Shown here piece after piece: positions 2,005 to 53,073 of a stretch of DNA of 64,000 nt. The notes below the pieces were generated by a model, which saw only the letters and a list, made by a program, of their open reading frames with translations, made no database searches and was not told where the DNA came from. Both the position numbers and the translations under genes were made by a program. Origin of the DNA: Tubulanus polymorphus (lineage: Eukaryota > Nemertea > Palaeonemertea > Tubulaniformes > Tubulanidae); NCBI RefSeq assembly GCF_964204645.1, contig NC_134035.1, positions 3,362,001 to 3,426,000 of the forward strand, written 5' to 3'. The stretch's first letter is position 1. Each line of letters starts with the position of its first letter.

Positions 2005-5000
2005 CTACGCTATATTCGGGACGTCGCCGTTTCGTTTAAGGTTCGATTTATCTAACTGTAGCAGTTCGACTGCCGCTTCGTCGTGACTCTGATTATCGCT
2101 GTGATGATACGGATGCACGAACGAATGATGCGACTGATGACTTACGCTCGACATTTCCGACAGCGTGCGCTTGCGTCTGTGGTGTTGGTGGTCGCCGGCG
2201 CCGCCCGCGACGAAGTCGTGGTGGTTGTCGAGACTCTTGACCGAGCTGCCCAGTCGCAGGTGCGACGTACACTGCTCCACCTGCTCGGACACGTGAAGAT
2301 CTTTCTGACAGAAGAAATAGACGAACGACGCGCAGTAAGCCGTCGACATCGCGTTACCCGTCGACCGCACCCGATCCCTGAAAATACAACGATATCATTC
2401 GTTTTTTGAAACACATTTTCCATTTCTTCGCAGTCGGGAGATGTTTGTGTTGGATTTTCCATCTCTTCCCAGTTGTGAGGGCTGATTACTTACAGGAACC
2501 ATTCAACCGTGAACAACATGGCGACATCGGCCACCGGTAAACCGATCGACTGACAAATAATCATCACTATCACGACGCTACCGCTCGGAATGTCAGGAAG
2601 GGCGCACATCAATATCGTAATCATCAACCTAAAATATACAAAAATATTATATAATGATAATATAATAATTGAGTTTCATTTGAATAACATTAACCCTTTC
2701 AGTGCGTCTACACTGCAGCGCGGTGTATGAATCGGTGATGGATTTTGCTAGTACACCGCGCTGCGGTGTATTGATGTAATCAGTAATTAGTTTTTATCTC
2801 TCTTGAAAAATGGCAGCTCCTGTCAAACATAGTTAAATATTAGTAACTACTGATACACCGCACTGTGGTGTAGACACACTATAGTGGTATTCCCGTTATT
2901 CAACACACTAGGGGTGGAATTTTTAAAAATTTTCAAATTATCTCCAGCATTAAAGGGTATTAATTAGTCAGCACTGAAAGGGTTAACATGAATATTGACA
3001 GCAAAGAAAAATGAAGTACAGCGAGAGCCTTAGGGGCTGTACCGGTCATCTCTTGACTTACGAACTGAATTCCGATCAGCGCGTCTTATTACCTACCATA
3101 GTATAAACATACCACCGGCGTCGGGCTGCATGTCGTTTCGCTGAGCTATCAACAGCACGCTACACGTCACGAAGATGGCGCTGCCCGCTTTATTCGTCGC
3201 CGAACAGAACGGCAACACGAACCGGATCACTCGTATGTCGATGCTGTATTTTTCGCAGCCCTTGTACAGATCGGGGATCGTGACGGCTCTGAAACAATGT
3301 AAAATGATAACGTATAATAAATCGAGCCTATGACAAGCCCGCCGCATACTAGGCCATTTCTAGCCGCGGGTTGTAATATTCTTAATCACCGGCAACTTTT
3401 GTTTTTATCGCAGGACCCCAAGTTACAAGGTGACGCTGCTAGTTGTTGGCACCACTTTTCGGCCTACAATTTTGATAGACAAAAGATGCCAGTGGCCGCA
3501 CACTAGGCGATATCACAGCAGATTTATCGCAGTGCCGGGGTGTATTATTTAACCTGTTCAATTGAGTAGCAGTAACCCTTCCGTTAAAAATCAGGGGCCA
3601 GTTGCACAGTCGTAACTTAAGTCCAAAAGTGGTCTTAAATCGTAAGACAGGTCTTAAATTGATAGATTGGCTATAGAACTAAGTTGGTCTTAGACTGGTC
3701 TTAAGTCTAAGCCATGACTATGCAACCGGCCCCTGGGGCCGAAGGTTGGTTACAGTTAACCAGTGGTTAGTTGACATAGCGACAATTGAAAGTTTATTTT
3801 TACTATGGTATTTATCCGCCGGTTATCTTAAACCAACTGACCCCAGTCTATTAAACCAAAACCTATCATTTCTATACGGTTAACAACCTAAACTTAAGTT
3901 TTATTAGGTCTCAGAACAACTGATACGGAAATAGGTTTCGATCAAAGCAATACTAGCGGTAGCAAAGTACCAGTAGCAAATGCGCACTAATTTCTAAAAC
4001 CAATTACTTTATATTTCAGTCAAAAAGTATAATATATAAAAGTTAACTGCCATAATTTAACGTTATATTAAAGCCGAAATAGGTCCTGCACGTGATAGTA
4101 AAAACGACATTTGCCATTATTTACATCTCCCATTATGAACAGCTCGTGACCAACTAATGAAGGGCACTTAATCATTAATGGGTACCATTTATCATTCAGT
4201 ACTAATAGTCAGGTAGTTATACATAGACACTATACAAACTGTATGATTCAAGCCATCTAATTAAGGGACTCATCTTTTATTTATATCATCAGGTATAAGA
4301 TATTTCCCTTAGGACAATATAATGACATTACTTTAACAAAACAATTGATGGGAAAATAGTTGGAGATTAATCGTAGAGAAATCGATAAGATTTTTCCTCC
4401 ATTAGCCGCGATTGCACGGAGACAATTTTGGCCCGGGTCAAATTGGCCTGGATCGGACCTGAGTCAAAATTAGCCCGTGCCTAATTTGAGACCACGTTCG
4501 CACTTAAACCACTCACGCGATATTAAAATGTTACGTATAAATAAGATGCTGTAGCAAGTGAGGTAAGTCACTTCCAAAACCACTGAAATTTGGCACAGGC
4601 CTGGTCCGACATTTATGACCAGGCCAAATTTGGCGCCATTTGGCACAAGTGTAAATAGTTGGACCGCATCAAAATTGCGACTATATCGTTGATATTCATC
4701 CCAGCCCCTGTCCAGCCACGATTCAAAACATGTACTCGATAAACTTCAGGTTTTATCGTCGCACCTTTTTTCGAAAAGCGGAATCAACGTCTAAACAAAT
4801 AACGGCAACCTGTCGGGATGAGAAGTAAAATGTAAGGCAGGTTTTAACGACGCGACAGCTGTGCGTTGTCGGTATACTTATATATATATATATATATATA
4901 TATAGTGTGGGTGTCACAGATGTTTTGGGTAAGGTGGAATTTAGATTTGGTCGCGATCTATTATCACGACTGTATGAGAGAACGAGCGATTAGTTGGTGA

Positions 5001-8000
5001 GCTAACGATTCTAAACCCGAATTCAATCGATATCTGGTGATATCTCTCCGCGAGCTCATTGTATATCGATTAGACGTACATACTCAACACGCACTTATTA
5101 AAATTCATTGCAAGCATCTGTTCAATGAAACTGATATGCTAGGATTCAATCAAACAAATCACTATGAGCTACTACAGGATGTGCAAGTCCCGTCTCACAA
5201 AGCCTGTTAACACTAAATACCTTTTAGTTTCACTAATTTTAGCTGAGAATGTCTCCGGTAAATGGATTACATTTTTTGTTCAAACTATTCAAATATCAAT
5301 AATTTCATTAATTGGCACTATATACCAATCCGATAAGCTGAAAAACCAGTGTAAGCTCATTTTAGTTCTATAGCCAATCCAACAACTTAAGACCTGTCTA
5401 AGTTCATTTTAGTTCTATAACCAATCTAACAACTTCATTCTAAGTTCATTTTAGTTCTATAACCAATCTAACAACTTCATTCTAAGCTCATTTTAGTTCT
5501 ATAACCAATCTAACAACTTAAGACCAGTCTAAGTTCATTTTAGTTCTATAACCAATCCAACAACTTCATTCTAAGCTCATTTTAGTTCTATAACCAATCT
5601 AACAACTTCAGACCAGTTTAAGCTCATTTTAGTTTTATAACCAATCTAACAACTTAAGACCAGTCTAAGCTCATTTTAGTTCCATAATCAATCTAACACC
5701 CTAAGACCAGTCTCATGATTTAAGTGTCACTAGTAGTGACTCAGTGTTCCAAGTTCCAGGCAAGGGACACAAATAAGAATGGAGTAACTAGTGATAGCGC
5801 GGGCAACAAAAACTTAGAACCACTCTCGAGAGAAGTATTCGCTGAAGACACACTTACACGCTCGTAGTCGCGAAACTCGTCAACCAACTCTTCAAGTTGT
5901 AAACGTACAACGTGAACGGATTGCGACGCCGCGTGATGAACTCGACGGCCGGAACGAGAATCAGCTGCTGGAACGTGACGCCGACGACGACGGCAAGAAT
6001 GAACAGACCGAGTTGACGGAACGTCGCTTCGATGTTGCCGATCCCGGCGATCGCGGCCGCCGTCAGACTGGCGATACCGATCGGCGAATACCTGCGTGTG
6101 AACAAAAAAAAATAAAGAAACCTATTTTAAAGAATTCCGATTCATTTACGGCCGCCATCTTTCTCACAGTTACATGCATTAAAAATTCCCAGGCTTTTTC
6201 CAAGTTTTGATGAGTGATTTTTCAATTTTCCCATATAGAAATGAACAGATACCATCATGCTACAGTAAACATTTTAGTGGTGACTGGTTGATAAAGCTGA
6301 TTCTAAAGGAAATTGCTGAAAGTTCCCCTTGGTAGATGCAATATTCAAAATGTAAACGAATTTGCCAAATATTTCCCTGATTTGAGGACAATTTCTCAAA
6401 TTCCCAAATATTTCCTTACTGGGAATCGTTATTTCAAAATTCCCAAGTTTTTCCCGATTTCCCTGTTCTGTGGGAACCATGAGCTTCGCGTATGTTCGGA
6501 TGGAGGACTATTCAGTTCTGTAGCATCTTACCACAGGAACCAGCCGAGAATTTTGATAATCAGTTCGCTAGCCGCGTTGAAAAACATGAAGAACGGCTGC
6601 CCGACCTCGCCGCTGTTACTGGTCGCGATACCGAACACCAACGAACAAAATATTATTCCTGCAATGAAATTAAAAAAAAAATATCAAAAACTGTTACAAA
6701 ATGTTTTTTTTTTTCATGTTCAAAGTTTTTTTCTTTTAAGCGATGCCCGACTTTCTGGACGACCCAATAAATTAGGTGAACCAGACACAACCTAGATCAT
6801 ATAGTCAATGGTTCATACTTCGTGATAAGGTCTAGGTTGAACCAATGTAATCTGCGTTATGATTTATCACTTTTTATCGGTTGTCATATTGAATAAATAT
6901 TTTTCGAGTCAAGTAAAGGTCGAAAATCAAGTTTTCATTTCCTGATAATTCTTTTTTTTCAAATACCCTGTGCTGATATTTCCGAAGCTGCGCATATTAG
7001 AGTTATACCTGCATTCAAATTATTCTTTATCCTTGACCGGTATTCAAAATGGTGTCACCAGGTAGTTCAATGGAGTTGAATTGATTAATTTTAAGAAGTT
7101 TAATTAATACATTTTTAATTGTTTAACTCCAAAAGTCAAATCTAAATAACTAATTGTGGAACTGATCGTTTAAACACTATTTCCTATTCAGCATCAGGTA
7201 AATGCTTTTTAAACTATTTTAATCTATTCATTTACTGTTGATTATAATCTTGCACATCTTTTTCTAAATTCTTCATCTTTCCCCTCAAAACAGACCTCCT
7301 AAGGATACTCATAAATGTATGAACTCGAAATACTGTTCAAACATTGTTCTCTACTACTAGACGGGGATGATTACTATCTACTACCAGTGCTCGGAAACCT
7401 GAGTCAAATCTGCTGCTGCTGCTGCTGCTGCCAGACTGACTGACTTGAGTAGAAATTATATATTCTTAGATATTTGAGTTCATGAACGTTATTTCTTATA
7501 TTAGCTTTAGGTTAAACTAGTTCATTTTCACTACTACATGTTCTACCTAGATATCAGTACAAATATCCCTATAACTACATCCCTCTATAAGCTGAAAACT
7601 AATTTGTGGCTTAACCTCCCCCTATAGAGAAGTCCCTTCACATATTCATATACTCACATATTCGCTATAGATGTCCTGCTATAGAAACTATGTTTTACCG
7701 TACAACAAAACCTCAAAACACACTAAATATAGCTGCAAAGCAGCGATAACGGGTTTTCCCGAAACATTGACCACGCTTTCCACAATGCATTATATCATAC
7801 TTTATAAGTCTTACCCAACATATTAGATCCATCTGTGAACCCGATTTGACGTATATACTCGATCAGCGTTTCGTTTGTGAAGAGCGACGATACGTTCGCC
7901 GCGGCGGTGGCCGCCGTGCCGTTACTCAGAAAGTACGACGTCACGTTTTCGGCGCTGACATTGACGGCCGGCATTAGAATCGCTTTAGATTCAGAGTTGT

Positions 8001-11000
8001 ACGACGTTTGAGTCTGAAATGAGTACAGGATAGTTTTACTTGAATTCTCTATCGGTTTCTGTTTTCTTATTCAGTTTTTAATAATTCAGGGAAAATATAC
8101 CGGTACATTTTAGTCCCATGATTTCAAAAGGATATCAAGTAAACTGCGCTTCACTCTGTGAGTGTTGGGACAGCTGTAAATATTTCACCGAGTTGCGAAA
8201 AGAAATTTTTTTCTAAATGGATTTTTGTAAAATTCATTGAGGTGACCAGTATTGAATTGACCAGTACTGAGTTGACTGAGCACTGAGTAAGGAAGAGTCT
8301 ACTTCAGTAAACTATGCCTCACTCGGTAAATGTTCAGTGGGAAAATCTGGGAAATAGATCATCCAAATAATTTTCTAGTAAAATACACCGACCGGTACCA
8401 AGTAAGGAGCAGTCTACTGTTATTCCTTCAACGCATGAAATACTAAGATTCTTTTCGTGTAAATCTAAACCGATTCGATAACCGCACAGTCTAAGGGCAG
8501 ACGGCACTTGGCTATATTCATACAAATATATACAATATCTTATCAATGGTTTATTTGATTTGAAAAAAGGTGCCGGTTGTTATTAACTTACCTGTCTAAA
8601 ACAAGCAGCGATAATATTATCCGGAAAAAGATTCCTAGAAATAGAAATATAAGTCGATGTGATAACAACACGCAGAATAAGTCGTCAAGGTCACAAACCA
8701 TGTGATAATATTTATAGATTTAGAGCGAATGTGTTGGTAAATATTCAAGTGAAACCTATCAGTAGAGGGCCGGCCACTTTCTGGCCATTTACAAATTCCC
8801 CGAGTTTTCTGAGTAAATCTGCTGCAGGTGAATCGGGGAAATTTCTAGGTTTAAAATGTAACAATTCATTTCTCTTTTATTGAATCACGTTCTGATAAAG
8901 AAATGCGTGGCATTATACGAATTCCCTGAGTTTTCCAGAAGCCAGTTGCACAAAAGTTTGTTTGAGTTAACCAGTGGATCATTGACATAGTGATAATTGA
9001 AATTGCATTGTTACTATGGTATTTATCCGCCGGTTTGCTTTAACCAACTTTTGAGCAACTGGCCCCAGGTGTTTACCAAAATTCATCCAATCGCCTGTAT
9101 TTTCCCTGATATTTTCTAGATTTCTCTGAATCTGAGTTTTCCAGGTTTCCAAGGTTGTCAGTGGCCACCATAACAATTTAGACAGGGATCTATATTATCA
9201 AATCCGGTCCTACAAATGGGGTACCCGCGATACGCAGCGCACAAGGTGTCGCTAGTGTAAAGTACAACTGCACGCCGGATATTCTCTAAAAATCCAATCA
9301 AAATCGAACAATAATTTCAAGTCGAAGGAACCATATTTGTGTATACACGTTTCAGATATGACCGGTATCAATTAATCTACCTAATCGGAATGGACGGAAA
9401 AACCAGCATACATTCAACAATTACACACATACTTGTACATAATTAACTCTCAATACGGCGCACGAGCAGATGTTGCTATACACATCGCGGACAAATATTT
9501 CACGTCAATAGACAGAAAATACCGCCGAAAACAATATACGAAATTTCACTCATGAAATAAGAGCAGATGTTTCCGCGAAATCTATATCAGCGTATACATA
9601 GGTAACGAACGTATTTCATTTCGGTTTTAAATGCGAAATCTATGCAAATCTATGAGACTGTTGTTTTCCCTTATTTGACATATTTATATAGAAAGTTCAG
9701 TTTTTTATATAATATCGGGGTCTGTAATGTTTGATAGCGTTCGGGTCAGTAAACCCTGACAAGCCATCTACCTTCACTGGGACTCGAACTTAATGGCATC
9801 ATGAGAATACAAGCCTCTTAAGGACACAGGGACTCAAAGCTGATAGCGTCATGAGATTCATGGCCGCACAAAGACATAAGGATTCGAACCTATGGCATCA
9901 TGAGACTGCCTGCCTCATAAGGACACAAGGATCAAAACTGGTGGCATCATGAGATCTCATGCCGTAGCAGTCTGGGTGTGCAGTTATTCACAATGGGTGG
10001 TCTAAAAGGCCGGACATTTTTGTGAAAAACCAAATGAAGTACTCCAGATATGTATCTGATGTCGGGGGACACCCCACTCTTGACACTCTTGAGATTTTCT
10101 GAGTTTCTTTCTGGTACAATCAAGGTCCTTGTATGTATAAGCATTCTCTTTTGCTTCTTCAAGACATTTCCCTTTTATGACAACACGATCATCATCATGG
10201 CACGAATAGATTTTGAGTTAAAGTAGTCTAAGATCATACCTATATTTGATAGTATTCTTTTGTTTATAAAATCTTATTGCAATTCATGGGAAATAAAGTT
10301 ATTACTATCATTATCAAGTCTACCTGAGCATGTCGGCGAATATATCTTGCGTTTGCATCAGTTGTTTTTCTTCGCCGTTTTTCTCGATCCCAGCCGCTTC
10401 GCCATATCCTCCTACAACGCGTATAAAATATATATATAAAAATATCGACGATTCAATTGATATCTACTGATAATGGCTAAAAACTAAGCCAGGGTCCCTA
10501 CAGATTGGTTATTCCTGGAGATACAAGGAGTTTCAATGAGTTTAAAAGGAGAAAATTTCAAATTTTATGTGAATTTAACTGTCGACTCCTCCTAAATCGG
10601 TATTGTTGATCTTGGTAAACCATTAATTCGGTGGTCTTGTAAGTTAGTGAACTTTTAAGGACTCAAAAGAGTCGCAGGGATCCTGCAAGCCCTGCAAGCC
10701 GCGCAAAAAAGATACTCGCCAGTGTTTTAAAAGTTGAAACTATGAAATATGTATAGGTTTTAATTATCACCACTAAACGCAATGAAAAAAAGTGAGTTAA
10801 CACAATCGACATCGGTTAATCCATCCATCCGTCCAGGGTTAAGCAATTAATCAGTACATAGATTAGCCCAGTTTTAACGTAATGTTAATTACCTAAAATC
10901 CATATTTTCAATTATTCCGTAGAAAAATATGTCACCCTGTTGTCTCGAATTTATATGCAATACCTTATCCATCAGCTGTCGGGGGCGGGCGGGGGGTGGG

Positions 11001-14000
11001 GGGTATATTTTTCAGTTAAAAGAATTCAGGCCCCAATCATCAATCTACTAAATCTGTACATTTCATGTATTCTTTTTGTAATTTTGTATTCCTTTCAATT
11101 AATGATGAAACAAATCTTATACCATAGTACATTCAAACAACTCAACATTTAGATTGTTCGGTTAGTAGTTTATGGATTTGAATCATAAAGGTGTTTTAAA
11201 GATAATAGCCCAGCCAAAAAGCGTAGCACTGGGCCTCCCGTGCTACACAATGGATATACATCCCCGATGGCTTATATTTTGAGGTATATCAATGCTTTAC
11301 AATGAGTACATTATTTATTTAGCTGAACCAATCATAGATCGGTATGGTATACTCCATGTTTATTTATTCTTGAACAGCCGAGTCCACGCTTTAGGGAAAT
11401 TTAGTGAAATAAGCAATAACTGTTTGATTTTATGCGCGATATAAATCTCAACAAATTTCCCCGATTTTCCCCTGATTTTTAGCCTCTTTCTTTTTAAACA
11501 AAATTCCCTGACTTATCCCGGATTTCCCGTAATTCCCGGTAAGAGCGAACCTCGTTGATATATATGTAAATACTTGAATTAAAATATGCAAAGCAGTGTC
11601 TGAATTTAAGGGACTATCCGGTATATATTAAAAATCTAGCCGTTATAATATCAAAGCTTCGGGAAAAGCTGAACACATTGCAAAGCGCGACACATTTTCT
11701 AAGTGTAGCGTTCATAAATTGTAGTCGCTTTTGATAAATGAGATTGTCGCCGCGTACCTTGTCTAATCGTCAACGACAGTATGATTCCGATCAGCGTACT
11801 GGTAGCGTTAGTTACCATCACGTAAGCCAGGGTCATTACGCTTACTTTACCGTTCGAACGGGAATCCAACGATGCTGCCCCTAAAAAAAAAAAAAAAAAT
11901 TAAGGCGTGTTTTTAGGAAATATCTCAAACGAATCAAATCGGATAGACGTAGAGTTTCATATCGAAATTCGCACTCGCAACTCAAGTCTAGACTCAGACC
12001 ATTCGGATTTCAGAGTTTATCACGAATCAATACTGTTCTACCCATAGGAACGTTGACCGAAGCTTGTTTTAAGTCATAAGGGGCCGGTTGCATAGTCGAA
12101 GCTCAGATTCAAGACCGGTCTAAGACCAACTATAGTTCTATAGCCAATCCAACAACTTAAGACCGCTCTTAGGATTTAGGACCATTTTTGGACTTCAGTC
12201 ACGACTGCGCAACCAGCCCCGGTTTATTGTAATTTGAAGTAGACTGGTCTGGAGTTGTTAGATTTTCTAAAGAGCCGTCTTTAGACTAAGACCGTTTTTT
12301 TTAAGACATCATGATCCAGTTCCACAGTTCTGAGTTAAGATTTGACTCTCGAGTTAACTCATTGAAAATGAACTAACTCTAACTCACAACTGTGGAACTG
12401 GGTCATCATAGTTACATCTTTCTAACATTTGACCAGTCTCAAGGCTAAGGCCGGGTTTTTTAGTTGTTATCAAATCAAAATTGGACTAACGTTGAACTAA
12501 AATTGATATCAACGCTACAGGCTCAAGACCAGCATTCAGTCGTGCGACTACAGAACCAAATCGAGCTTAAGACTGGTCAAAAAATCTTCAGTACTGTAAC
12601 AGTTGTAACAGCGCGAAATACTGGGCTTGGGTCGATGAATACTATATTGCTGCATGTATGTGACAAGCTGTATAACCACTGGCCAACTGGATTAGTTATA
12701 TTGGCCTACTGGTTAGCAGGCTTGTTTTGTCGGTACCTGGGTTCAATCTCCGGTGAGGGCGTGCAATCTAACTGCATCACTCCCTCATATTGTTACAACT
12801 ACATAATACTTACCTGATATTATACAAGACACGACAAGTGGAATGATCATCATTTTCAGCAAACGAAGAAATATGTCTCCGGGAATACCTAGAAATAGTA
12901 AACAACATTGAGCGGTTAACGAGTGATTTGCTAGAGATGTATTTTAGTCTTGGCCATGACTTCGCAACTGGTTCACGAGTCTGAAGCTAAGAGCCTCGAA
13001 TCACGTTGAACAAAGGTTATCTGCAGGACAAAACCAACAACCATGTTATATAGTTCATCAGACATGAGCGGTTAATTATATAATCGCATCTGATGATGAA
13101 TTCGTGAACGTTAATCCTGTGAAATGGGAGCATTTCGAATCGGAATAATTATACGCATAATAATCATCACGCGCAAAAACTGGGGGGGGCGGGTCTAGAA
13201 AATTTGAAACGGCGAGTCGCGCTTCAAATTTCGAAAAACATTTATGCTTTTAGATGGCGTTTCCTGCATTTAAAATCGTCATTTTAAAAAGGAAAGGAAT
13301 TCCGGTTTTATTCGTTACAATTTCGTGATGTTTATTTCATCAACGCTCAATTGAAAAATTTGGTGCCTCTGAATCATCCCCAAACCCAGAATCGGACTGA
13401 TAAAACAGCCTGAATCAGAGGTACAAGCACCTGGTCAGTCGGTATTCACTACAGAACGCCATTCTACAGTCCAGACAGTCCAGACTGAACAGAATTCCTT
13501 CCACAGTCCAGACTGAACAGAACTCCTTCCACAGTCCAGACTGAACAGAATTCCTTCCACAGTCCAGACTGGAACAGAATTCCTTCCACAGACCAGACTG
13601 GAACAGAATTCCTTCCACAGTCAAGACTGGACAGAATTCCTTCCACAGTACAGACTGAACAGAATTCCTTCCACAGTCCAGACTGAACAGAATTCCTTCC
13701 ACAGTCCAGACTGGACAGAATTCCTTCCACAGTCCAGACTGGACAGAATTCCTTCCACAGTCCAGACTGGACAGAATTCCTTCCACAGTCCAGACTGAAC
13801 AGAATTCCTCAAACCACCAGGTCTATTACAGACTTTATTTTGTTGACTTAGATCTTGAAGTTTGATATACAAACACAAAGGTCGAAATTGCTCGAAACGA
13901 CCACTTGAAATACCACTTGTTAAAGGTGGTTGAAATTTGAACTTCGGTTTTTCTTGTTTCACACATTAAACTACTGACCGATATTCTCGATGCCGAAGAC

Positions 14001-17000: not shown

Positions 17001-17378
17001 TTCTTCGCCTGAAGTCATCGACCTGATTACACCGAACCTAGTCTGAACCTGTGAACCTCCTCATTAAAAATAATCACATGATATCTAATTAGGTCTCTCG
17101 AAAAAACAAAGCCCACACTTCAGATCCGACTTACCGATCCACATCAAAGCATCAGGTGACGGTTTGTAGGGTCGCACGACGAAACCGATGATAAATCCGA
17201 AAACTATTCCCACAGCAGTTAGAATCAGTAACAAATTCTCTTTGAGATTTTTAATGATGTTGTCTTTGGAACAATCACACGTGCAGCAAGAAGGTTTCTT
17301 TTTGTCGTCGTGATGAGGCGGGTCGCCGTCCATCATAACAACTCCTATTTTGCTGTCTTCGAATTCATCGGTAGCCAT
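2005..17378 (-). CDS. SLC1A-family (EAAT-like) transporter with a degenerate transport core, 11 exons
   Basis: Exons joined on the minus strand: 17135-17378, 12814-12888, 11758-11880, 10324-10411, 8592-8634, 7815-8013, 6532-6658, 5858-6091, 3097-3288, 2494-2628, 2005-2377. All phases agree and give 610 residues. Family hallmarks in order: N-terminal TM1 (about 45-70), GDIFLRLLKMMIIPL (TM2), AASLDSRSNGK, an Asn-glycosylation-rich extracellular loop (about 200-245), YSPIGIASL, and RFVLP before TM7. Relatives are plasma-membrane sodium-coupled glutamate/aspartate carriers with an associated anion conductance. Key core residues differ: the NMDGT motif is NKAGS (410-414), the HP1 SSSS is TSVA (376-379), HP2 lacks its glycines, the aspartate of NVLGD is Thr499 and the TM8 aspartate is Glu484. 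Arg491 and Asn495 are kept. The C-terminal tail of about 100 residues is His-rich. Fold assignment is firm; sodium-coupled transport is doubtful. Confidence 0.88.
2694..2982. mobile_element. piggyBac-like MITE, copy 1
   Basis: Flanked on both sides by TTAA (2690-2693 and 2983-2986). Inverted termini read CCCTTTCAGTGC and GCACTGAAAGGG. 289 bp with no coding capacity. Same family as 28289-28551 and 59845-60116. Lies in the SLC1A intron between exons 9 and 10. Confidence 0.85.
3594..3844. repeat. Two adjacent foldback repeats, CAGTTGC family
   Basis: First unit 3594-3734 begins GGGGCCAGTTGCACAGTC and ends ATGCAACCGGCCCC. The second, 3735-3844, carries the TTAACCAGTGGTTAGTTGAC and ATCCGCCGGTTA segments of copy 464-743. 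Head-to-tail junction at 3734/3735. Confidence 0.55.
4872..4906. repeat. TA dinucleotide microsatellite
   Basis: About 15 TA repeats inside an SLC1A intron. Confidence 0.9.
5345..5712. repeat. Minisatellite, unit about 36-48 bp
   Basis: About eight units of CTCATTTTAGTTCTATAACC followed by AATCTAACAACTT and, in some units, AAGACCAGTCTAAG. The unit matches the inside of the foldback copy at 12080-12220, so the array probably arose by amplifying part of such an element. It sits just beyond SLC1A exon 8 (5858-6091). Confidence 0.85.
7410..7431. repeat. CTG trinucleotide microsatellite
   Basis: Seven CTG units within an SLC1A intron. Confidence 0.9.
8765..9180. mobile_element. Degenerate DNA element with a foldback repeat nested inside
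   Basis: Outer element: starts near GGGCCGGCCACTTTCTGGCC and ends GTCAGTGGCCACC; a relative lies at about 60150-60420. It is interrupted at 8941-9066 by a foldback repeat running from GCCAGTTGCACAAAAG to TTGAGCAACTGGCCCC. Outer sequence (TTCCCTGAGTTTTCCAGA, then GTATTTTCCCTGA) resumes on either side, so the foldback copy is the younger insertion. Confidence 0.55.
9735..9960. repeat. Degenerate tandem repeat, unit about 52 bp
   Basis: About four units with the pattern ACACAGGGACTCAAA..TGGCATCATGAGA. One unit contains GATTCGAACC, which resembles a tRNA B-box complement, so the unit may derive from a SINE. Confidence 0.6.
10200..10320 (+). mobile_element. Possible LINE/SINE 3' end
   Basis: Ends in AATAAAGTTATTACTATCA followed by TTATCAA, a pattern typical of non-LTR retroelement tails. 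No reverse-transcriptase coding sequence was recognised upstream, so the call rests on the tail only. Confidence 0.3.
10490..10686. mobile_element. hAT-like MITE (short copy)
   Basis: Starts CAGGGTCCCTACAG and ends near CAGGGATCCTGC. Interior segments (ATTCCTGGA, AAGGAGAAAATTTCAAATTT, GTAAACCATTAATTC) match the longer element at 48509-48939 and the fragment at about 47830-48040. Confidence 0.55.
10981..11003 (+). other. G-quadruplex-prone G-rich tract
   Basis: Four runs of 3-6 G separated by single C, C and T bases on the plus strand, in SLC1A intron 3. Confidence 0.7.
12080..12220. repeat. Foldback repeat, CAGTTGC family
   Basis: Begins GGGGCCGGTTGCATAGTC and ends GACTGCGCAACCAGCCCC. Its interior TAGTTCTATAGCCAATCCAA matches the unit of the 5345-5712 minisatellite. 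Confidence 0.65.
12315..12404. repeat. Foldback repeat, CAGTTCCACAG family
   Basis: Arms read CCAGTTCCACAGTTCTGAGT and ACTCACAACTGTGGAACTGG around a TCATTGAAAATGA centre; about 90 bp. Confidence 0.75.
13480..13806. repeat. Minisatellite, unit 27-28 bp
   Basis: About 12 units containing CAGTCCAGACTGAACAGAAT and TCCTTCCA; nearly every unit carries GAATTC. The 27-bp period keeps frames open on the minus strand, which gives spurious overlapping peptides in more than one frame. Lies in SLC1A intron 1. Confidence 0.95.
14815..15015. mobile_element. PIF/Harbinger-like MITE, copy 1
   Basis: Termini GGCTAAATAAATTGATACC and GTGTATCATTTTTGTTTAACC, with internal GACCGGCCGG and GACCCGGCCGC blocks. Same family as the copies at 18379, 25420, 42755 and 44496. 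Target duplication is no longer clear here. Confidence 0.7.
16680..16945. repeat. Degenerate minisatellite, CAGTTACTGACTAAA type
   Basis: Irregular units of about 25 bp around GTCCAGTTACTGACTAAATC, in SLC1A intron 1. The same unit occurs at 34085-34310 in a DNAAF1 intron. Confidence 0.75.
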
Positions 17379-18951: not shown

Positions 18952-20040
18952 TCATTCCGCCTTTCGTCGGCAAAAGCGACATTTCAGAATCAGCTCTTTA
19001 GCGGTAGCTCTAAAATGATCGTTGGCCACGTAATAGATAAAGAAATTTACCGACGAGTTCAAAGTTGGTAAAAGGTTGTCGAACATCATTTGAGTGATGT
19101 ATACCGCGTCGCCGTAGGGCTGAATTTTTGGAAGGTTTATAAAACGGGCTAGGAATTCATAGATAGATCGATAAGATGGCGGTATTTCGCAGACGACAAA
19201 TAGAACGACTATAGCTATAGCAATTTTGATAGCTTTCACGTCGAGACGCGATATATTTCTTTCGCCAGTCATTTCTTTTCTTTTCGCCGTCAGTTTACGA
19301 AGAATCCATATCAGGTAGCAATTGAAAATCATTAGTAAAATTGCCGGCAATAATTCCTTAATTAATGTAGCGATGGATCGGTTAATCCATATGAAAGCAC
19401 GGAAGAAGCCCGATCGTTTCCCTTTAGCTGGACCGATGCCCGTTATGTGAACATTGTTACAAGCGTCAAAGAACGAAATGTTTATGCTTGTGCCGATAAC
19501 GAAAGGCGAGTATAATAAACCAAAGCCAGCAAGCATACAACAAACAATGATTTGTATTCTGTATTTTGTAATGTGAGATCTGGCGAAAAATGGAAAAGTT
19601 AAAGATACACATCGTTCTAAAACTAACAGCACGGTTATCCAGTTGCGCGTCACCTGCGCCGAATATCGCGGAATCCAAGCCGTTTTATAGATCCACGGTC
19701 GCACGCCCCAGCTCAGGTACGGAATCCAAAACATGTGAGTTCCTTGCGTGAACCAGGACACGACGAAACGCAACGGTTCCTGAATCGTGTTGAAAATAAG
19801 GAAGAGTATATCGGCCAGCGCGAGACAGCGTAACAGGTACAACGAGATGTGATCAGACGACTGGCGACGTATGATGAAAATACTGAACGTATTCAGAATG
19901 ATACCGACGATGCTGATCGGTAGAGTGCCTGCTAGCTTTACGCTGACGAGAAGCACGTTTTTAAAAACGTACGGTCGATTACAGTCTGGCGTAGTTTCAG
20001 CTACTGTGGTCGTCGCACTATAATTCATGCCGATAGACAC
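18952..20040 (-). CDS. Class A (rhodopsin-type) GPCR, tandem copy 1, intronless
   Basis: 362 residues, seven hydrophobic segments: TM1 about 27-55, TM2 66-90, TM3 120-150, TM4 162-184, TM5 228-248, TM6 267-288, TM7 313-338. The DRY position reads LERCVSL (141-147) and the NPxxY region reads NSSVNFFIYY (328-337), a form I associate with invertebrate FMRFamide/peptide-type receptors. TM6 has CEIPP instead of CWxP. The N-terminus has two Asn-linked-type sites or fewer and Cys20; Cys194 lies in loop 2. The ligand is unknown. It differs from copy 3 at four positions (39, 131, 204, 251) but from copy 2 at about 32. Divergently oriented to the MRPS21-type exon 440 bp upstream. Confidence 0.88.
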   Translation of the reverse strand: MSIGMNYSATTTVAETTPDCNRPYVFKNVLLVSVKLAGTLPISIVGIILNTFSIFIIRRQSSDHISLYLLRCLALADILFLIFNTIQEPLRFVVSWFTQGTHMFWIPYLSWGVRPWIYKTAWIPRYSAQVTRNWITVLLVLERCVSLTFPFFARSHITKYRIQIIVCCMLAGFGLLYSPFVIGTSINISFFDACNNVHITGIGPAKGKRSGFFRAFIWINRSIATLIKELLPAILLMIFNCYLIWILRKLTAKRKEMTGERNISRLDVKAIKIAIAIVVLFVVCEIPPSYRSIYEFLARFINLPKIQPYGDAVYITQMMFDNLLPTLNSSVNFFIYYVANDHFRATAKELILKCRFCRRKAE

Positions 20041-20479
20041 TACATGTCACATACCACGAATACTGGCGGTTCTGACATCGATAGTTACAAGTTAAAGTTA
20101 CCTACGAGCAATCCCGTGATTACTCGTAGTAAGTACGAACGCTTCGTTGCTTCATAGAACTATTCCGAGTTCTATGGTTGCTTGCATTGCGTTCTCAACG
20201 AGACTGAATAGTAGAATTGTTTCAGTCCCTCTGAAAACCCTGGTGTGTATTCCAGCATGCAGGAATATGCGGCTTGATGATATTAGTGTCGAGGTCGATG
20301 ATCTGATACTAAAAAAAGCTCAGAAAAAGAAAAGCTCGAGGACTAAACCTATTCCAAACATGATTGGAACCACCCACTATCTATTCATCATTGATCCCTG
20401 AATGTGGATATTATCGGAACCATCCGTCATGAAATGAATAATCTATGATTTGCAAAAATCTGACAACCCGATTTGAATC

Positions 20480-22363: not shown

Positions 22364-23452
22364 TCATTTCGCCTTTCGTCGGCAAAAGCGACATTTCAGA
22401 ATCAGCACTTTAGCGGTAGCTCTAAAATGATCGTTGGCCACGTAGTAGATAAAGAAATTTACCGACGAGTTCAAAGTTGGTAAAAGGTTGTCGAACATCA
22501 TTTGAGTGATGTATACCGCGTCGCCGGAGTGCCAAATTTCTGGAAGATTTATAAAACGGGCTAGGAATTCATAGATAGATCGATAAGATGGCGGTATTTC
22601 GCAGACGACAAATAGAACGACTATAGCTATAGCAATTTTGATAGCTTTCACGTCGAGACGCGATATATTTCTTTCGCCAGTCATTTCTTTTCTTTTCGCC
22701 GTCAGTTTACGAAGAATCCATATCAGGTAGCAATTGAAAATCATTAGTAAAATTGCCGGCAACATTTCTCTGATTAATACACTGAAGAACTGGTCAATCC
22801 ATTGGAAAGCACGGTAGAAGCCCGATCTTTTCCCTTTAGCTGAACCGATACCCATTACGCGAACATTGTTACAAGCGTCAAAGAACCAAGTGTTTACGTT
22901 TGTGCCGATAACGAAAGGCAAGTATAATATACCAAAGCCAGCAAGCATACAACAAACAATGATTTTTATTCTGTGTTTTGTAATGTGAGATCTGGCGAAA
23001 AATGGAAAAGTTAAAGATACACATCGTTCTAAAACTAACAGCACGGTTATCCAGTTGCGCGTCACCTGCGCCGAATATCGCGGAACCCAAGCCGTTTTAT
23101 AGATCCACGGTCGCACGCCCCAACTCAGGTACGGAATCCAAAACATGTGAGTTCCTTGCGTGAACCAGGACACGACGAAACGCAACGGTTCCTGAATCGT
23201 GTTGAACACAAGGAATAGTATATCGGCCAGCGCGAGACAGCGTAACAGGTACAACGAGATGTGATCAGACGACTGGCGACGTATGATGAAAATGCTGAAC
23301 GTATTCAGAATGATGCCGACGATGCTGATTGGTAGAGTGCCTGCTAGCTTTACACTGACGAGAAGCACGTTTTTAAAAACGTACGGTCGATTACAGTCTG
23401 GCGTAGTTTCAGCTACTGTGGTCGTCGCACTATAATTCATGCTGATAAACAC
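22364..23452 (-). CDS. Class A GPCR, tandem copy 2, intronless, with a distinct extracellular face
   Basis: 362 residues, same length and frame as copy 1. About 32 residues differ from copy 1: 20 lie in 175-230 (end of TM4, loop 2, start of TM5) and 4 in 305-309 (loop 3). Residues 5-81, 124-159 and 231-304 are identical. Because those loops usually form the ligand entrance, the copy may recognise another ligand. The start codon context and N-terminus (MFIS instead of MSIG) also differ. Confidence 0.88.
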   Translation of the reverse strand: MFISMNYSATTTVAETTPDCNRPYVFKNVLLVSVKLAGTLPISIVGIILNTFSIFIIRRQSSDHISLYLLRCLALADILFLVFNTIQEPLRFVVSWFTQGTHMFWIPYLSWGVRPWIYKTAWVPRYSAQVTRNWITVLLVLERCVSLTFPFFARSHITKHRIKIIVCCMLAGFGILYLPFVIGTNVNTWFFDACNNVRVMGIGSAKGKRSGFYRAFQWIDQFFSVLIREMLPAILLMIFNCYLIWILRKLTAKRKEMTGERNISRLDVKAIKIAIAIVVLFVVCEIPPSYRSIYEFLARFINLPEIWHSGDAVYITQMMFDNLLPTLNSSVNFFIYYVANDHFRATAKVLILKCRFCRRKAK

Positions 23453-23897
23453 TACACGTCACATACCACGAATACTGGCGGTTCTGACATCGATAGTTAC
23501 AAGTTGAAATTATCTACGAGCAAACCCGTGATTACTCGTAGTAAGTACGAACGCTTCGTTGCTTCATAGTAATATTCCGAGTTCTATGGTTGCTTGCATC
23601 GCGTTCTCTTTTCAACGAGACTGAATAGTAGAATTGTTTCAGTCTCTCTGAAAACCCTGGTGTGTATTCCAGCATGCAGGAATATGCGGCTTGATGATAT
23701 TAGTGTCGAGGTCGATGATCTGGTACTAAACAAAAGCTCAGAAAAAGAAAAGCTCGAGGACTAAACCTATTCCGAATATGATCGGAGCCACCCACTATCT
23801 ATTCATCGTTGATACCTGAATGTGGATATTATCGGAGCCATCCGTCATGAAATGAATAATCTATGATTTGCAAAAATCTGACTACCCGATTTGAATC

Positions 23898-25992: not shown

Positions 25993-27081
25993 TCATTCCG
26001 CCTTTCGTCGGCAAAAGCGACATTTCAGAATCAGCTCTTTAGCGGTAGCTCTAAAATGATCGTTGGCCACGTAGTAGATAAAGAAATTTACCGACGAGTT
26101 CAAAGTTGGTAAAAGGTTGTCGAACATCATTTGAGTGATGTATACCGCGTCGCCGTAGGGCTGAATTTTTGGAAGGTTTATAAAACGGGCTAGGAATTCA
26201 TAGATAGATCGATAAGATGGCGGTATTTCGCAGACGACAAATAGAACGACTATAGCTATAGCAATTTTGATAGCTTTCACGTCGAGACGCGATATATTTC
26301 TTTCGCCAGTCATTTCTTTTCTTTTCGCCTTCAGTTTACGAAGAATCCATATCAGGTAGCAATTGAAAATCATTAGTAAAATTGCCGGCAATAATTCCTT
26401 AATTAATGTAGCGATGGATCGGTTAATCCATATGAAAGCACGGAAGAAGCCCGATCGTTTCCCTTTAGCTATACCGATGCCCGTTATGTGAACATTGTTA
26501 CAAGCGTCAAAGAACGAAATGTTTATGCTTGTGCCGATAACGAAAGGCGAGTATAATAAACCAAAGCCAGCAAGCATGCAACAAACAATGATTTGTATTC
26601 TGTATTTTGTAATGTGAGATCTTGCGAAAAATGGAAAAGTTAAAGATACGCATCGTTCTAAAACTAACAGCACGGTTATCCAGTTGCGCTTCACCTGCGC
26701 CGAATATCGCGGAATCCAAGCCGTTTTATAGATCCACGGTCGCACGCCCCAGCTCAGGTACGGAATCCAAAACATGTGAGTTCCTTGCGTGAACCAGGAC
26801 ACGACGAAACGCAACGGTTCCTGAATCGTGTTGAAAATAAGGAAGAGTATATCGGCCAGCGCGAGACAGCGTAACAGGTACAACGAGATGTGATCAGACG
26901 ACTGGCGACGTATGATGAAAATACTGAACGTATTCAAAATGATACCGACGATGCTGATCGGTAGAGCGCCCGCTAGTTTTACGCTGACGAGAAGCACGTT
27001 TTTAAAAACGTACGGTCGATTACAGTCTGGCGTAGTTTCAGCTACTGTGGTCGTCGCACTATAATTCATGCCGATAGACAC
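25993..27081 (-). CDS. Class A GPCR, tandem copy 3, intronless
   Basis: 362 residues; differs from copy 1 only at T39A, T131K, P204I and T251K, although copy 2 lies between them. Motifs as in copy 1 (LERCVSL, CEIPP, NSSVNFFIYY). It stands 446 bp from the MRPS21 start in head-to-head orientation, so a shared promoter region is possible. Confidence 0.88.
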   Translation of the reverse strand: MSIGMNYSATTTVAETTPDCNRPYVFKNVLLVSVKLAGALPISIVGIILNTFSIFIIRRQSSDHISLYLLRCLALADILFLIFNTIQEPLRFVVSWFTQGTHMFWIPYLSWGVRPWIYKTAWIPRYSAQVKRNWITVLLVLERCVSLTFPFFARSHITKYRIQIIVCCMLAGFGLLYSPFVIGTSINISFFDACNNVHITGIGIAKGKRSGFFRAFIWINRSIATLIKELLPAILLMIFNCYLIWILRKLKAKRKEMTGERNISRLDVKAIKIAIAIVVLFVVCEIPPSYRSIYEFLARFINLPKIQPYGDAVYITQMMFDNLLPTLNSSVNFFIYYVANDHFRATAKELILKCRFCRRKAE

Positions 27082-27527
27082 TGCATGTCACATACCACGA
27101 TACCCGTGATTACTCGTAGTAAGTACGAACGCTTCGTTGCTTCATAGAACTATTCCGAGTTCTATGGTTGCTTGCATTGCGTTCTCTTTTCAACGAGACT
27201 GAATAGTAGAATTGTTTCAGTCTCTCTGAAAACCCTGGTGTGTATTCCAGCATGCAGGAATATGCGGCTTGATAATATTAGTGTCGAGGTCGATGATCTG
27301 GTACTAAACAAAGCACAGCAGAAAAAGAAAAGCTCGAGGACTAAACCTATTCCGAATATGATCGGAGCCACCCGCTATCTATTCATCATTAATACCTGAA
27401 TGTGGATATTATCGGAGCCATCCGTCATGAAATGAATAATCTACGACTTCCGGGTTCTAAAAAATCGCTAGCGGAATCTATGAAGTTTTAAAATAATTTG
27501 CAAAAATCTGACAACCCGATTTGAATC

Positions 27528-37329: not shown

Positions 37330-45758
<8,429 letters not shown>

Positions 45759-47311: not shown

Positions 47312-49658
47312 CTAACGGAACTTCCCTTTCCACTCGAAATCGTAGCGACTCGCCCAAAAGTGACAACCGTGGGAGTTCGTCTTCAACAGATGCTCGAACG
47401 TGAACGGGTTCAGATTCTGGCGTTCGATACGCTCGAGTTCGCCGTCGCGTTCATCCAGAATCTCCTGACTGACGACCTCGGCGTTGAACGGCAACTTCAA
47501 CGCGACCATCGACATCCAGTCCTCGACCTCCTCGAACTCCGCGTGACCTCCGACCTCGATGATCACGCGACCGGCCTTCACCGGCGTGACGTAGTGGTCG
47601 ATCGAACCCTTTCCGCCGCCCATGCGGTGGCCTTGGCCTTTTTTCGTGATTGGTTTCCACGGCGCGTCGACGCGCCACACGGCGAACATGCGTTTCTCGT
47701 CGAGGTTGCGATTGATCGTCAGTCGTATCAGTTCTAAATGTCCGTGTCGCAGCTTGCCACCGGTGAGAGCCTTGGAAAAACAAACGAAAAAGAAGCACGC
47801 GTTGAAATTTCCGGTTAATACCCCGGTAAATGAAAATACAAGCTCCCTACGGATCAGTCATTCCCGGATACAAGGAGTTTTCAAGGAGAAAATTTCAAGG
47901 AAGGTCTGCATCACTTTCGTATCCCAAATACTGTAGACTCCTACTAAATTGGTAATGTTGTTTCTCGGTAAACCATTCATTGGTTTCATTCAACGGTTTT
48001 ATAAGCAAATTGTACCTTTAACTCAAATCATAGAGTCACTAACCCCTTCCAATGCAGACATTTTTTGCAATCATTCGATACAGTTTAAAATGGATTAAAA
48101 ATCAATGTTTTAGGTCAACTGCCAGTCCTTTCTCATCCTAATAAGACTTATCAGGTATTTACCACCATAAACGGACTGAGCTAGGCCACCTGGTATGCTC
48201 TCAAGTCAAGTTGAAATAGACATAAGTATTTCGTCATAGGCCAGAAAACCTACCCGTTATACACTACATTCAAGGGACAATAACAAAACCTTCGAAACTG
48301 CGCGATACTTACGATGATAGCATATTGTTTATGTATGAGTTTGTTGTGTACGAGTTCGGGGCCGCGCATGTCGATCAAACGCTTCGACATTTTCGGCACG
48401 CGCATCGTCGCCGGATACTGAGGAACTTTCTCCAATATCTTCAAACGCCGTCGTTCCGGAAATTCCACGTCTACGTTCGGGAAAACGAGAGAAAACTAAA
48501 TTCAGTACCAGGGTCCTTATGGAACAGTCATTCCTGGATATACAGGGTCCCTACAGATCAGTCATTCCTGGATATACAGGGTCCCTACAGACAGTCATTA
48601 CAGAATTTAAGGACTTTTAAAGGAGAAACTTTCAAATTTTGGGAAGCGTCTGCATTGCGTTCGTGTTCTGTTACAGTAGACTCCTCCTAAATCAGTATGA
48701 TTACTGTTTTTCTCAGTAAACCATTAATTCAGTGGAATCTGTGTGCAAGGCATAAGACGTCAATAAACTAGGCCTAAAACCTAAAAAGTTTCTAATTGTC
48801 GATTTATCTAAATTCAAGGAGTTTCTGAAGGATTTTAAGACCTTACGATCAAATTCAAAGATATTCACGGACTTTGAAAAACGTTTGGTTTGGAAAAGAG
48901 AATCAAGTTTCAAGGAATCGAGGTGTTGTAGGGACCCTGTGTACGGGTATCAAAAAAGGGACGCACTGAATTCACTTTATTTCTATTATTGTATGTTCGA
49001 TAGTACTTACGATCAAATTTGACGGGCGGTTTTAGATTCATCAGCGTCGCGCATGACACAGTCGTAGCACATCGGGGAATCTCTGTAAATAAATAATGGG
49101 AAATTAGAAATTTAGGCTGAAACAAAAACGGTCGCACGTAAAAACAGTCAAAGCAAATGGCATTCACGGCAAAACATAAAGAATAAGTTATATAAACATG
49201 ACCACAAATTTTGGCTAATTTATGTTTTTGACCGCAGTAGAAACTAGCCAACCACATTCTGGATCCTTTAGAAAAAGACGATATAAAATTCTCTGTGAGA
49301 GACGCAATTTTCAGAATTTGAGGGGATTTTGGGGGGCCAAGGGCTAAAACCCAGAATTTGAGGGATTTTGTACAGTCAAAAATGGATTATGGAATTTGAG
49401 GGGCTGTAGGAACCCCGCAGAAGCAGCCATTGGCAAAATAGCGAGTTAACAGGAATAATACTGCATTGGCAAAAAAATATCACCTGCCCTCCTAGTCCTA
49501 CTATCAAAAACCCAGAAACAAATAAAATCCAACAAGAAGACAGTTTACGAGCCCCTCCTGTGTTTTTACAACTGACCCAGCAACTTTCGCTGTATTGAAT
49601 CTATGTTTCTCCGCGAGCAGACGGCTAGTGGTCGCCTGATTATTGAGGACATCATCAT
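47312..49658 (-). CDS. MRPL16: Mitochondrial large-subunit ribosomal protein uL16m
   Basis: Exons: 49577-49658, 49011-49082, 48313-48470, 47312-47770; phases agree and give 256 residues, close to the human protein. Core L16 signatures: LIRLTINRNLDEK, FAVWRVDAPWKPITKKG, GHRMGGGKGSIDHYVTPVKAG and EVGGHAEFEEV. The protein is part of the mitochondrial large subunit near the peptidyl-transferase/tRNA corridor. Exon 1 is my weakest call: three ATGs, then Arg/Ser-rich, acid-poor RRPLAVCSRRNIDSIQRKLL, like a mitochondrial targeting peptide; its donor is GTCAGT and the phase fits. The 48470-49011 intron holds a hAT-like MITE. An AATAAA lies 90 bp past the stop. Confidence 0.92.
47830..48040. mobile_element. 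hAT-like MITE, truncated copy
   Basis: CTCCCTACGGATCAGTCATT, AAGGAGAAAATTTCAAGG, AGTAGACTCCTACTAAATTGG and GTAAACCATTCATTG match the element at 48509-48939. Both ends are decayed. Confidence 0.5.
48509..48939. mobile_element. hAT-like MITE in an MRPL16 intron
   Basis: Termini CAGGGTCCTTATGGAACAG and TGTTGTAGGGACCCTG. The left end carries two extra tandem copies of GGATATACAGGGTCCCTACA. 431 bp, no transposase. Confidence 0.65.
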
Positions 49659-50504: not shown

Positions 50505-51455
50505 TTATTTGACTGAATTTCTGCAACGAATTTTCGTACAGAAATATTCCCGAATTTCTCGTCCCAGTAAAAGATATATGTAGAAATTTACCACATAGTT
50601 ACACTGATGGAACTGAGTGAAAATATCTAAGAGAAAATCTTTCTGTTCCGTAGAGATTGGCAGGTATGCGGTAACAGTGGTGGGAAGTGTAAATATTGCA
50701 AATGCGAGTGAAACTGTTACAAGCATTATTGTCGTACGTTTTGATTTTGTAGTTTTCTTGTCAGACGAAACTATTTTTGAACCCCTGTATAACTGGAATA
50801 TTATAACAGAATTTGATGTAACAATGAACGTTAAGGGTAATATAAAAGCGTGAATGACAATCGTGATGAAATATGTAAATTGGTAAAATAATTCATAGTA
50901 ACACCCGAAAGACTGGTCGGTAAAAAGCATCGACATTGTAGGTAGAAGATATATAACCAGTACATTCACTGAAGTTATCGTCAATATGGCAAATCTAGCG
51001 AATCTCGGTGTACATATCAACCGAGATGTGAACGGGAAGAGAACAACTGCCGCACGTTCTAGAGATACAGCTACGATTAACCAGGAACTATTACAGGATA
51101 CTATAGTTGTTACGAATTCGTAGATTTGACAACTGATCAGTGAATTCATCACAAATATAGGACCAGTTGCTACGTACAACAGAACAAACTGCAAAACGGG
51201 CATCAAACATAGATTGATGCTGAACATAAAATCACTGACTGATAAAACGATAAGATAGTTAGCGTAAGATAAACTCCTGAATCTGCGACTTAACATTATC
51301 AGGAAAGTAGCCGAATTTCCAAAGGCTCCAAACAGAAACAATATAGGCAGCATGACCAATGACAGCTTACGGTATATACCAGACCTGTTCACTATAGACA
51401 TGATGACAATGTAACTATTATAACTTCGACCAATTTGCATCTGAGATGAATTCAT
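50505..51455 (-). CDS. Class A GPCR, second cluster, intact intronless copy
   Basis: 316 residues with seven hydrophobic segments: TM1 about 28-52, TM2 65-88, TM3 103-135, TM4 148-168, TM5 190-212, TM6 237-258, TM7 278-298. Landmarks: GNSATFLIM (TM1), LSVSDFMFSINL (TM2), SLERAAVVLFPF at the DRY position (no Asp-Arg-Tyr), TM6 FAIFTLP, TM7 NYVVNFYIYLL followed by GREIREYF. Three NxS/T sites near the N-terminus. Small loops suggest a peptide or small-molecule receptor; the ligand is unknown. Not closely similar to the 18-27 kb receptors. Codons are AT-rich compared with the housekeeping genes. Confidence 0.85.
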   Translation of the reverse strand: MNSSQMQIGRSYNSYIVIMSIVNRSGIYRKLSLVMLPILFLFGAFGNSATFLIMLSRRFRSLSYANYLIVLSVSDFMFSINLCLMPVLQFVLLYVATGPIFVMNSLISCQIYEFVTTIVSCNSSWLIVAVSLERAAVVLFPFTSRLICTPRFARFAILTITSVNVLVIYLLPTMSMLFTDQSFGCYYELFYQFTYFITIVIHAFILPLTFIVTSNSVIIFQLYRGSKIVSSDKKTTKSKRTTIMLVTVSLAFAIFTLPTTVTAYLPISTEQKDFLLDIFTQFHQCNYVVNFYIYLLLGREIREYFCTKIRCRNSVK

Positions 51456-52145
51456 GATTCGCAGGATGAGGCACCGGCGTGAGCAAGTCTATTCTCTCTT
51501 GTATTGGAAAATGAATTTTGATCGAAAATTCACTAAGATTTATACAATGTCTTATTCATGAAGTTATTTTTCAATGTAAGTCATTGAAATATCATCATTT
51601 CGATGAAACCATCGCTTTGTCCACCGCATTTAAGAGAATTGATTTTCATTCACTATAAACAATGAACGAATTTCATTTAATTTCTCTTAAATCCAACACA
51701 ATCCACTCAGATTTATGACGGATATTGATGTGCAAAATAAAAAACGTAACTATTTTAGATACAATTTCCGAGTATGAATCAATATCGATATTTCAAGAAG
51801 GAGTCCTTCATCTAATATTATTAAATTTGTATATTGTTTATTGATTCTCTTATTAATTCTGTAATAATTCCATATGAGAAATAAATCGTATCATGTGATG
51901 TCATGCTATCATACTATATTTGAATACGTAGTATACATGTCGTGGGTTTAGATAAAGAATCAAGAATAAGTTGAAAAGTTGACTGTACGATTCATAGGGG
52001 ATTTCAATTATCGACCTCCTTATTTTGTAAAAAGATCGGCAGCTACTGGAAGCCAATGAATCGTTGAATTGAACTTTTAATTGGCCGATGGATTTAGAGT
52101 GGTAGTGTAATTTTCTGGCGATCTGCGCAAGGTAGATTTCAATGG

Positions 52146-53073
52146 TTATTTGACTGAATTTCTACAACAAATTTTCATACAGAAATATTCCCGAATTTCT
52201 CGTCCCAGTAAAAGATATATGTAGAAATTTATCACATAGTTACACTGGTGGAACTGAGTGAAAATATCTAAGAGAAAATCTTTCCGTTCCGTAGAGATTG
52301 GCTGATATACAGTAACAGTGTTTGGAAGTGTGAATATTGCAAATGCGAGTGAAACTGTTACAAGCATTATTGTTGTAGGTTTTGATTTTGTAGTTTTCTG
52401 ATCGGACGAAACTATTTCTGAACCTCTGAATAACTGAAATATAACAGAATTCGATGTAACAATCAACGTTAAAGGTATGATATAACAATGGATGACAATC
52501 ATGATAAAATATATGAATTGATCAAACAATTCATAGTAACACCCGAGAGACTGGTTGGAGAAATGTATCGATAGAATAGGTAGAAGAACCAGTACATTCA
52601 CTCCGGTTATTATCAATATAGTGAATCTAGCGAATCTCGGTGTACATATCAAACGAGCTGTGAACGGGAAGAGAACAACTGCCGCACGTTCTAGAGATAT
52701 AGCCACTATTAACCATGAACTATTACCCGATGCTAGCGCTGTTAGGGATTCGTATATTTGACAACTGAACAAATATAGGACCAGTTGCTACTTGCAAAAG
52801 AACAAACTGTAAAACCGGCATCAAACATAGATTGATACAGTACATAAAATCACTGACTGATAAAACGGTAAGGTAGTTAGCGTAATATAAACCTCTGAAC
52901 CTGCGACTTATCATTATCAGGAAAGTAGCCAAATTTCCAAAGGCCCCGAACAGAAACAAGACGAATAGAATGACCAGTGATAGCGTACGGTAGATACCAG
53001 ACCTGTTTGCCACAGACATGATGACAATGTAACTGTTATAACTTCGACCAATTTCCATCTGAGATGAATTCAT
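52146..53073 (-). pseudogene. GPCR of the second cluster, broken by a 14-bp deletion
   Basis: Near-copy of the receptor at 50505-51455: starts MNSSQMEIGRSYNSYIVIM and ends YFCMKICCRNSVK. Between 52768 and 52769 the 14 bases TCAGTGAATTCATC of the intact copy (plus strand) are missing, which shifts the frame at the start of TM3. The N-terminal part then ends early (116 codons), while the remaining frame is open for 208 codons. No other break was seen, so inactivation is recent, or this is a polymorphism or an assembly error. Confidence 0.85.

Follow-up and report, generated by a model that had tools for sequence, protein, structure and literature searches.

Sodium ligands predicted to be lost and substrate ligands kept in an SLC1 protein of Tubulanus polymorphus: a possible release from sodium coupling

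The window analyzed here, 64,000 nucleotides of the nemertean Tubulanus polymorphus (contig NC_134035.1, positions 3,362,001 to 3,426,000 of the forward strand), contains an SLC1 gene that runs from 17378 to 2005 on the minus strand and is composed of 11 exons in the spliced gene model. A previous sequence-only reading had placed this gene at 2005-6100: its count of 11 exons was right, the range covers exons 8-11 only and misses the seven upstream exons. The exons are located as follows, with positions counted within the window:

Exon 1, 17135..17378, minus strand: ATG, N-terminus with a Cys-rich tail and TM1; GT donor
Exon 2, 12814..12888, minus strand: TM2 scaffold; AG/GT; junction common to the sister gene C11b
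Exon 3, 11758..11880, minus strand: end of TM2 and TM3; Na3 site residue T92 kept, S93 replaced by N
Exon 4, 10324..10411, minus strand: start of TM4; end junction common to all intron-bearing paralogs
Exon 5, 8592..8634, minus strand: placed by the gene model
Exon 6, 7815..8013, minus strand: variable extracellular TM4 loop with NxT/NxS sequons
Exon 7, 6532..6658, minus strand: TM4c-TM5
Exon 8, 5858..6091, minus strand: TM5-TM6 and first arm of HP1
Exon 9, 3097..3288, minus strand: second arm of HP1 and TM7 with NKAGS
Exon 10, 2494..2628, minus strand: HP2 and start of TM8
Exon 11, 2005..2377, minus strand: rest of TM8, His-rich C-terminal tail and stop

Other features were also observed in the window. 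Intron 1 of the SLC1 gene bears a tandem array (13418-13822), open in one frame, whose unit (cagtccagactggacagaattccttcca) is about 30 bases long. Three near-identical single-exon receptor genes follow each other in tandem at a spacing of about 3.5 kb (18955-20046, 22367-23458 and 25996-27087, minus strand); the first of them matches the Srw chemoreceptor family. Exons of a family 1 glycosyl hydrolase lie at 41478-42824 (plus strand), a ribosomal protein L16 exon at 47315-47857 (minus strand) and two similar tandem rhodopsin-type GPCR frames at 50508-51488 and 52149-52787 (minus strand), the second of which looks N-terminally shorter.

The SLC1 gene product has 610 codons followed by a proper stop, and AG/GT was found at every junction. 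Pfam SDF matches residues 51-506 with profile positions 2-384 of 387 (E 5.6e-79), and among solved proteins human EAAT2 comes closest (5e-87). When aligned with EAAT2, EAAT3, ASCT2 and GltPh, the helices, HP1 and HP2 are all in order and the transport domain is nearly gapless. Residue positions were compared via GltPh numbering: the substrate side chains T314, D394, R397 and N401 of the SLC1 fold family read S, D, R and N. Spliced alignment with human EAAT2 gave identical junctions around each motif. Furthermore, the junctions of exons 8-11 equal those of the canonical paralogs in this genome in alignment column and phase; for the paralog C6 they agree only after a 7-column offset that is caused by a mis-predicted HP1 insert in C6. 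The exon carrying NKAGS has the ancestral position and phase, and because its flanking junctions match the canonical genes in column and phase it is the true counterpart of the NMDGT exon; mis-splicing or a wrong exon was rejected on the same grounds. Alternative exons restoring NMDGT or the TM8 aspartates, which the sequence-only reading had named as fatal to its proposal, were not found by tblastn of all family members and a motif scan in the window's first 20 kb, where the matches were known exons and chance matches with E > 0.3; alternative exon choice was thus rejected. A pseudogene was rejected as well, by the open frame, the 11 well-formed exons, a dN/dS of ∼0.3 among paralogs within the genome (a rough value, as dS of 1.65-2.0 is near saturation) and a neutral-drift simulation in which 0.6 substitutions per site are expected to introduce ∼16 stops into 505 codons. 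The earlier view of an SLC1 protein with intact frame, not decayed, is borne out by these results, and a dN/dS near 1, which it had named as refuting when seen across species, was not observed among the paralogs. As far as can be read from the DNA, the gene is a real and intact member of the SLC1 fold family.

SLC1 proteins form trimers that work by an elevator movement, and the EAAT class carries out glutamate transport coupled to 3 Na+, 1 H+ and 1 K+. In GltPh, D390 holds R397 and Y317 stacks on R397, and a Phe at the latter position can still stack. Published structures show the NMD loop in contact with the substrate and each of the three Na+, and L-Asp coordinated by T314, D394, R397 and N401 (PMC12668577); M311 reaches towards substrate and Na2 (PMC7682989), and the acidic ligands are D405 of Na1 and D312 of Na3 (PMC5110648). 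The corresponding parts of the window gene are:

HP1 tip, part 1, 5858..5865, minus strand: T376, S377 and the start of V378, from the gene model
HP1 tip, part 2, 3273..3288, minus strand: up to P383; VAVTIP replaces SSATLP in the alignment
NKAGS, 3180..3194, minus strand: residues 410-414, replacing NMDGT; K411 (codon 3189-3191) equals GltPh M311, A412 equals D312
HP2 tip ALPDIPSG, 2580..2603, minus strand: residues 451-458; D454 equals GltPh G354
Start of TM8, 2494..2504, minus strand: E484 equals GltPh D390
TM8, 2341..2377, minus strand: D488 (D394 kept), R491 (R397 kept), S492 (T398), N495 (N401 kept), T499 (D405 lost)

The residues that define the EAAT class are changed in the window protein: TM7 reads NKAGS in place of NMDGT, the Na3 aspartate D312 is Ala412, the Na1 aspartate D405 is Thr499 and the Na2-contacting M311 is Lys411. 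HP1 reads TSVA at residues 376-379 with Val for S278, and T398 is Ser. The substrate side chains are retained as S414 (T314 as Ser, a conservative change), D488, R491 and N495; R491 corresponds to GltPh R397 and EAAT3 R447, and R489 is part of the DR pair. All motif residues given in the sequence-only reading (TSVA at 376-379, NKAGS at 410-414, ALPDIPSG, Glu484, Asp488, Arg491, Asn495 and Thr499) proved correct; its claim that most of the sodium and substrate motif set is lost applies mainly to the sodium ligands and fails for the substrate ligands. The Met to Lys exchange at the motif centre and the two sister genes had not been remarked. The window protein shares the full-length fold and D394, R397 and N401 with animal EAATs (SLC1A1-3, 6 and 7), as well as exon borders and phases when compared against the canonical paralogs of this genome, but lacks NMDGT, the Na1 and Na3 aspartates, Met311, HP1 serine 278 and the canonical HP2 tip, and carries Glu for Asp390. 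M311, D312 and D405 are retained in the four canonical paralogs of the same genome. M311 and D312 are also found in 80/80 sampled prokaryotic SLC1 proteins and D405 in 78/78 that cover it, in a sample that was seeded partly on N[MA]DG[TS] and is hence biased. In the predicted protein the Na+ ligands are selectively lost and the substrate ligands retained; judged by the defining residues, it falls outside the Na+-coupled EAAT class.

Pfam and protein searches of the 268 Mb genome yielded eight SLC1 genes: four canonical members (C1, C2a, C2b and C6), the paralog C2c, and three genes (the window gene, C11b and C5) that form one clade with a support of 100/100. C11b lies on the same contig as the window gene (C11:11483255-11487790, minus strand) and carries the motif NRNGS; these two genes have two introns in common that are present in no other paralog. 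C5 (G000:C5:19175833-19177540, locus L037) is intronless, with an open frame of 569 codons and the motif LNADGS. It is the sole intronless SLC1 gene in the genome and looks like an old retrocopy that is still functional, with no clear poly-A remnant in the 1.3 kb downstream; a horizontal origin was rejected, as C5 nests with the window gene in the tree. The clade joins the tree by a long stem close to the EAAT2-like C1 (98/95), with an exact root position that is subject to long-branch error, and more than one branching order within the clade is compatible with the data (AU p values of 0.19, for the window gene with C11b, and 0.09 for the alternatives). A single-protein search found no fourth member in the genome, and a description of the clade was not found in the open-access literature searched.

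Sixteen columns are fixed in the clade and differently fixed in canonical animal members, most of them in the binding core. Clade-specific replacements include S93N, G306C, T314S, Y317F, ALP at 351-353, G359S, D390E, G404S and G408C, and the window gene shows the clade signature of PFCxxxNxxGSAIF, ALPx[VI]PSxS and EWxLDRxRxTxN with D405 absent. All three members carry Asn for S93, Ser for T314, Glu for D390 and Phe for Y317 and keep N310; D394, R397 and N401 are retained in 3/3 and M311 and D405 altered in 3/3. In the order window gene, C11b and C5, M311 is Lys, Arg and Ala, D312 is Ala, Asn and kept, D405 is Thr, Thr and His, and S278 is Val, Ser and Thr, respectively; of the three, only C11b has lost T92, which is Asn there. 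A basic residue at M311 is thus found in both genes without D312, whereas C5, which keeps D312, has Ala. Judged by these columns, the binding core is remodelled in a way that is shared by descent and is not random wear.

Loss of the Na+ carboxylates, a new basic residue at M311 and retention of the substrate ligands are together best read as a putative release from Na+ coupling with a tethered cation. We assign a probability of roughly 40% to the reading that the window protein is an animal SLC1 carrier of acidic amino acids freed of Na+ coupling, with a pocket partly pre-formed by a tethered Lys/Arg cation. The narrower proposal, that Lys or Arg at the Met of NMDGT is a covalently tethered cation that permanently replaces the pocket-building Na+ and converts a Na+ pump into a Na+-independent glutamate exchanger or facilitator, is conceivable but doubtful. 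In the main reading, the amine of Lys411 would point into the pocket of Met311 and give the positive charge otherwise given by bound Na+. With D312 and D405 gone, the empty site would be charge-balanced without Na+ (E484 and D488 versus K411 and R491, counting these listed buried charges alone), and the pocket would then be pre-formed. Glutamate, aspartate or a close analogue could then be exchanged or passively equilibrated by the usual elevator motion without being concentrated, and Asp454 in the HP2 tip, which is specific to the window protein, may pair with Lys411 as a gate latch in place of Na2. That Lys411 stands in for Na+ and that acidic amino acids are exchanged is what we infer.

There are precedents for parts of this scheme. 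Lys, Arg or His occupies the Na+ site in LaINDY, ApcT and CaiT, carriers that do not need Na+ (PMC11782487); the proposed mechanism, a basic side chain replacing Na+, is alike, but LaINDY (INDY family), ApcT and CaiT (the latter two compared with LeuT) have other folds and are unrelated by descent to the window protein. Bacterial SLC1 proteins lost Na+ coupling through the stage of a Na+-independent exchanger, and the later H+ branch is altered at M311 and D405; the bacterial uncoupling mutations were allosteric and preceded the loss of site residues (PMC12668577), and proof of the mechanism therefore cannot come from the residues alone. The two allosteric positions linked to uncoupling in that study, 295 and 327, were uninformative: canonical animal members already carry Asp and Gln there. 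Against release from Na+ coupling, the replacement of S278 by Val and the rebuilt HP2 tip may have damaged substrate binding, and Lys411 might rather obstruct the pocket or cancel the charge of D394. Moreover, the Lys idea is not valid for the whole clade because C5 carries no basic residue at 311.

Alternatively, the window protein could have no coupled transport and act as a ligand-gated or leak anion channel, or as a glutamate receptor or transceptor, via the SLC1 scaffold and its interface pore. The gating hairpins show the lowest identity to canonical members (HP1 30% and HP2 18%, versus 38-46% for TM1-TM2), and the hydrophobic residues at the proposed anion pore are kept (GltPh F50, L54, V209 and L212 positions; F50, V209 and L212 are named in PMC5472439). 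However, ordinary transporters conserve the same pore residues, which are hence non-discriminating, and substrate binding would still seem to be of importance, given that the four substrate side chains are all retained; we regard this possibility as unlikely. It appears quite unlikely that the protein carries a different substrate, for instance a dicarboxylate or another anion, with Lys411 neutralising Asp488 or touching the extra carboxylate. A few pocket changes are documented to shift the substrate of SLC1 proteins: Culex CuqDCT, in which Asn and Ala replace D444 and T448, transports dicarboxylates (PMC3737229). The window pocket shows T314S, S278V, T398S and the HP2 rebuild. Like CuqDCT, the window gene is an animal SLC1 gene with binding residues altered after duplication; CuqDCT altered D444 and T448 for its substrate, whereas the window protein reads D and S there and has its sodium residues altered. 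Against this reading, all three clade members retain D394, the residue that favours amino acids over dicarboxylates, and T398 is altered only to Ser.

A proton-coupled carrier resembling the bacterial H+ branch, with Lys411, Glu484 or a His or Cys as proton site, is very unlikely in our estimate, even though two of the three signature positions that are altered in bacterial H+-coupled members, M311 and D405, are altered here (PMC12668577) and C5 carries a His at D405. The third position, T92, is unaltered in the window protein, the putative bacterial proton site S279E is Ala and the substitutions differ (Lys and Thr versus Leu and Asn). The window protein thus reads T, K and T for the bacterial H+-coupled (ExtH) signature [T/S]92[A/L/I/V/M/F], M311L and D405N, by which a bacterial-type H+ transporter was rejected. 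Loss of Na+ coupling within the SLC1 fold is common to the window protein, as predicted, and the bacterial AncInt and H+ branch; the animal origin is independent, and AncInt retains its Na+ sites, unlike the window protein. Finally, the gene might have been relaxed recently and be losing function, no longer giving a working membrane protein: 44/94 columns invariant among canonical members differ. This is extremely improbable in view of the open frame, exon structure, dN/dS and stop simulation described above, and of an exonic GC3 of 0.63 versus a GC of 0.38 in the large intron.

Building and loss of Na+ coupling in glutamate transporters have been studied in prokaryotic proteins and laboratory mutants. 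The three genes constitute a natural animal clade with graded loss of the Na+ aspartates (one left in C5, none in C11b or the window gene) and retention of the glutamate ligands, and hence a ready series for asking whether a fixed positive charge can do the job of Na+. By its residues, the window protein may be a naturally occurring animal carrier of glutamate with no need for Na+; if it is a channel or receptor instead, two EAAT functions would be separated in nature. Either way, homology alone is not a sufficient ground for annotating the clade genes as glutamate transporters.

The His-rich tail of the window protein contains 14 His in the last 110 residues and had been proposed to add a metal or pH response; it is absent from both C5 and C11b, which removes the ground for this proposal. 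The stretch is coded by ATG/GTG-rich triplet-like DNA at 2080-2200, which suggests repeat slippage as its probable origin. C2c (G000:C2:4292067-4294271, locus L035) is an unrelated altered SLC1 paralog with NIAGT, Tyr for D394 and Ala for T398; the Culex transporter became selective for dicarboxylates through changes at these same two TM8 positions.
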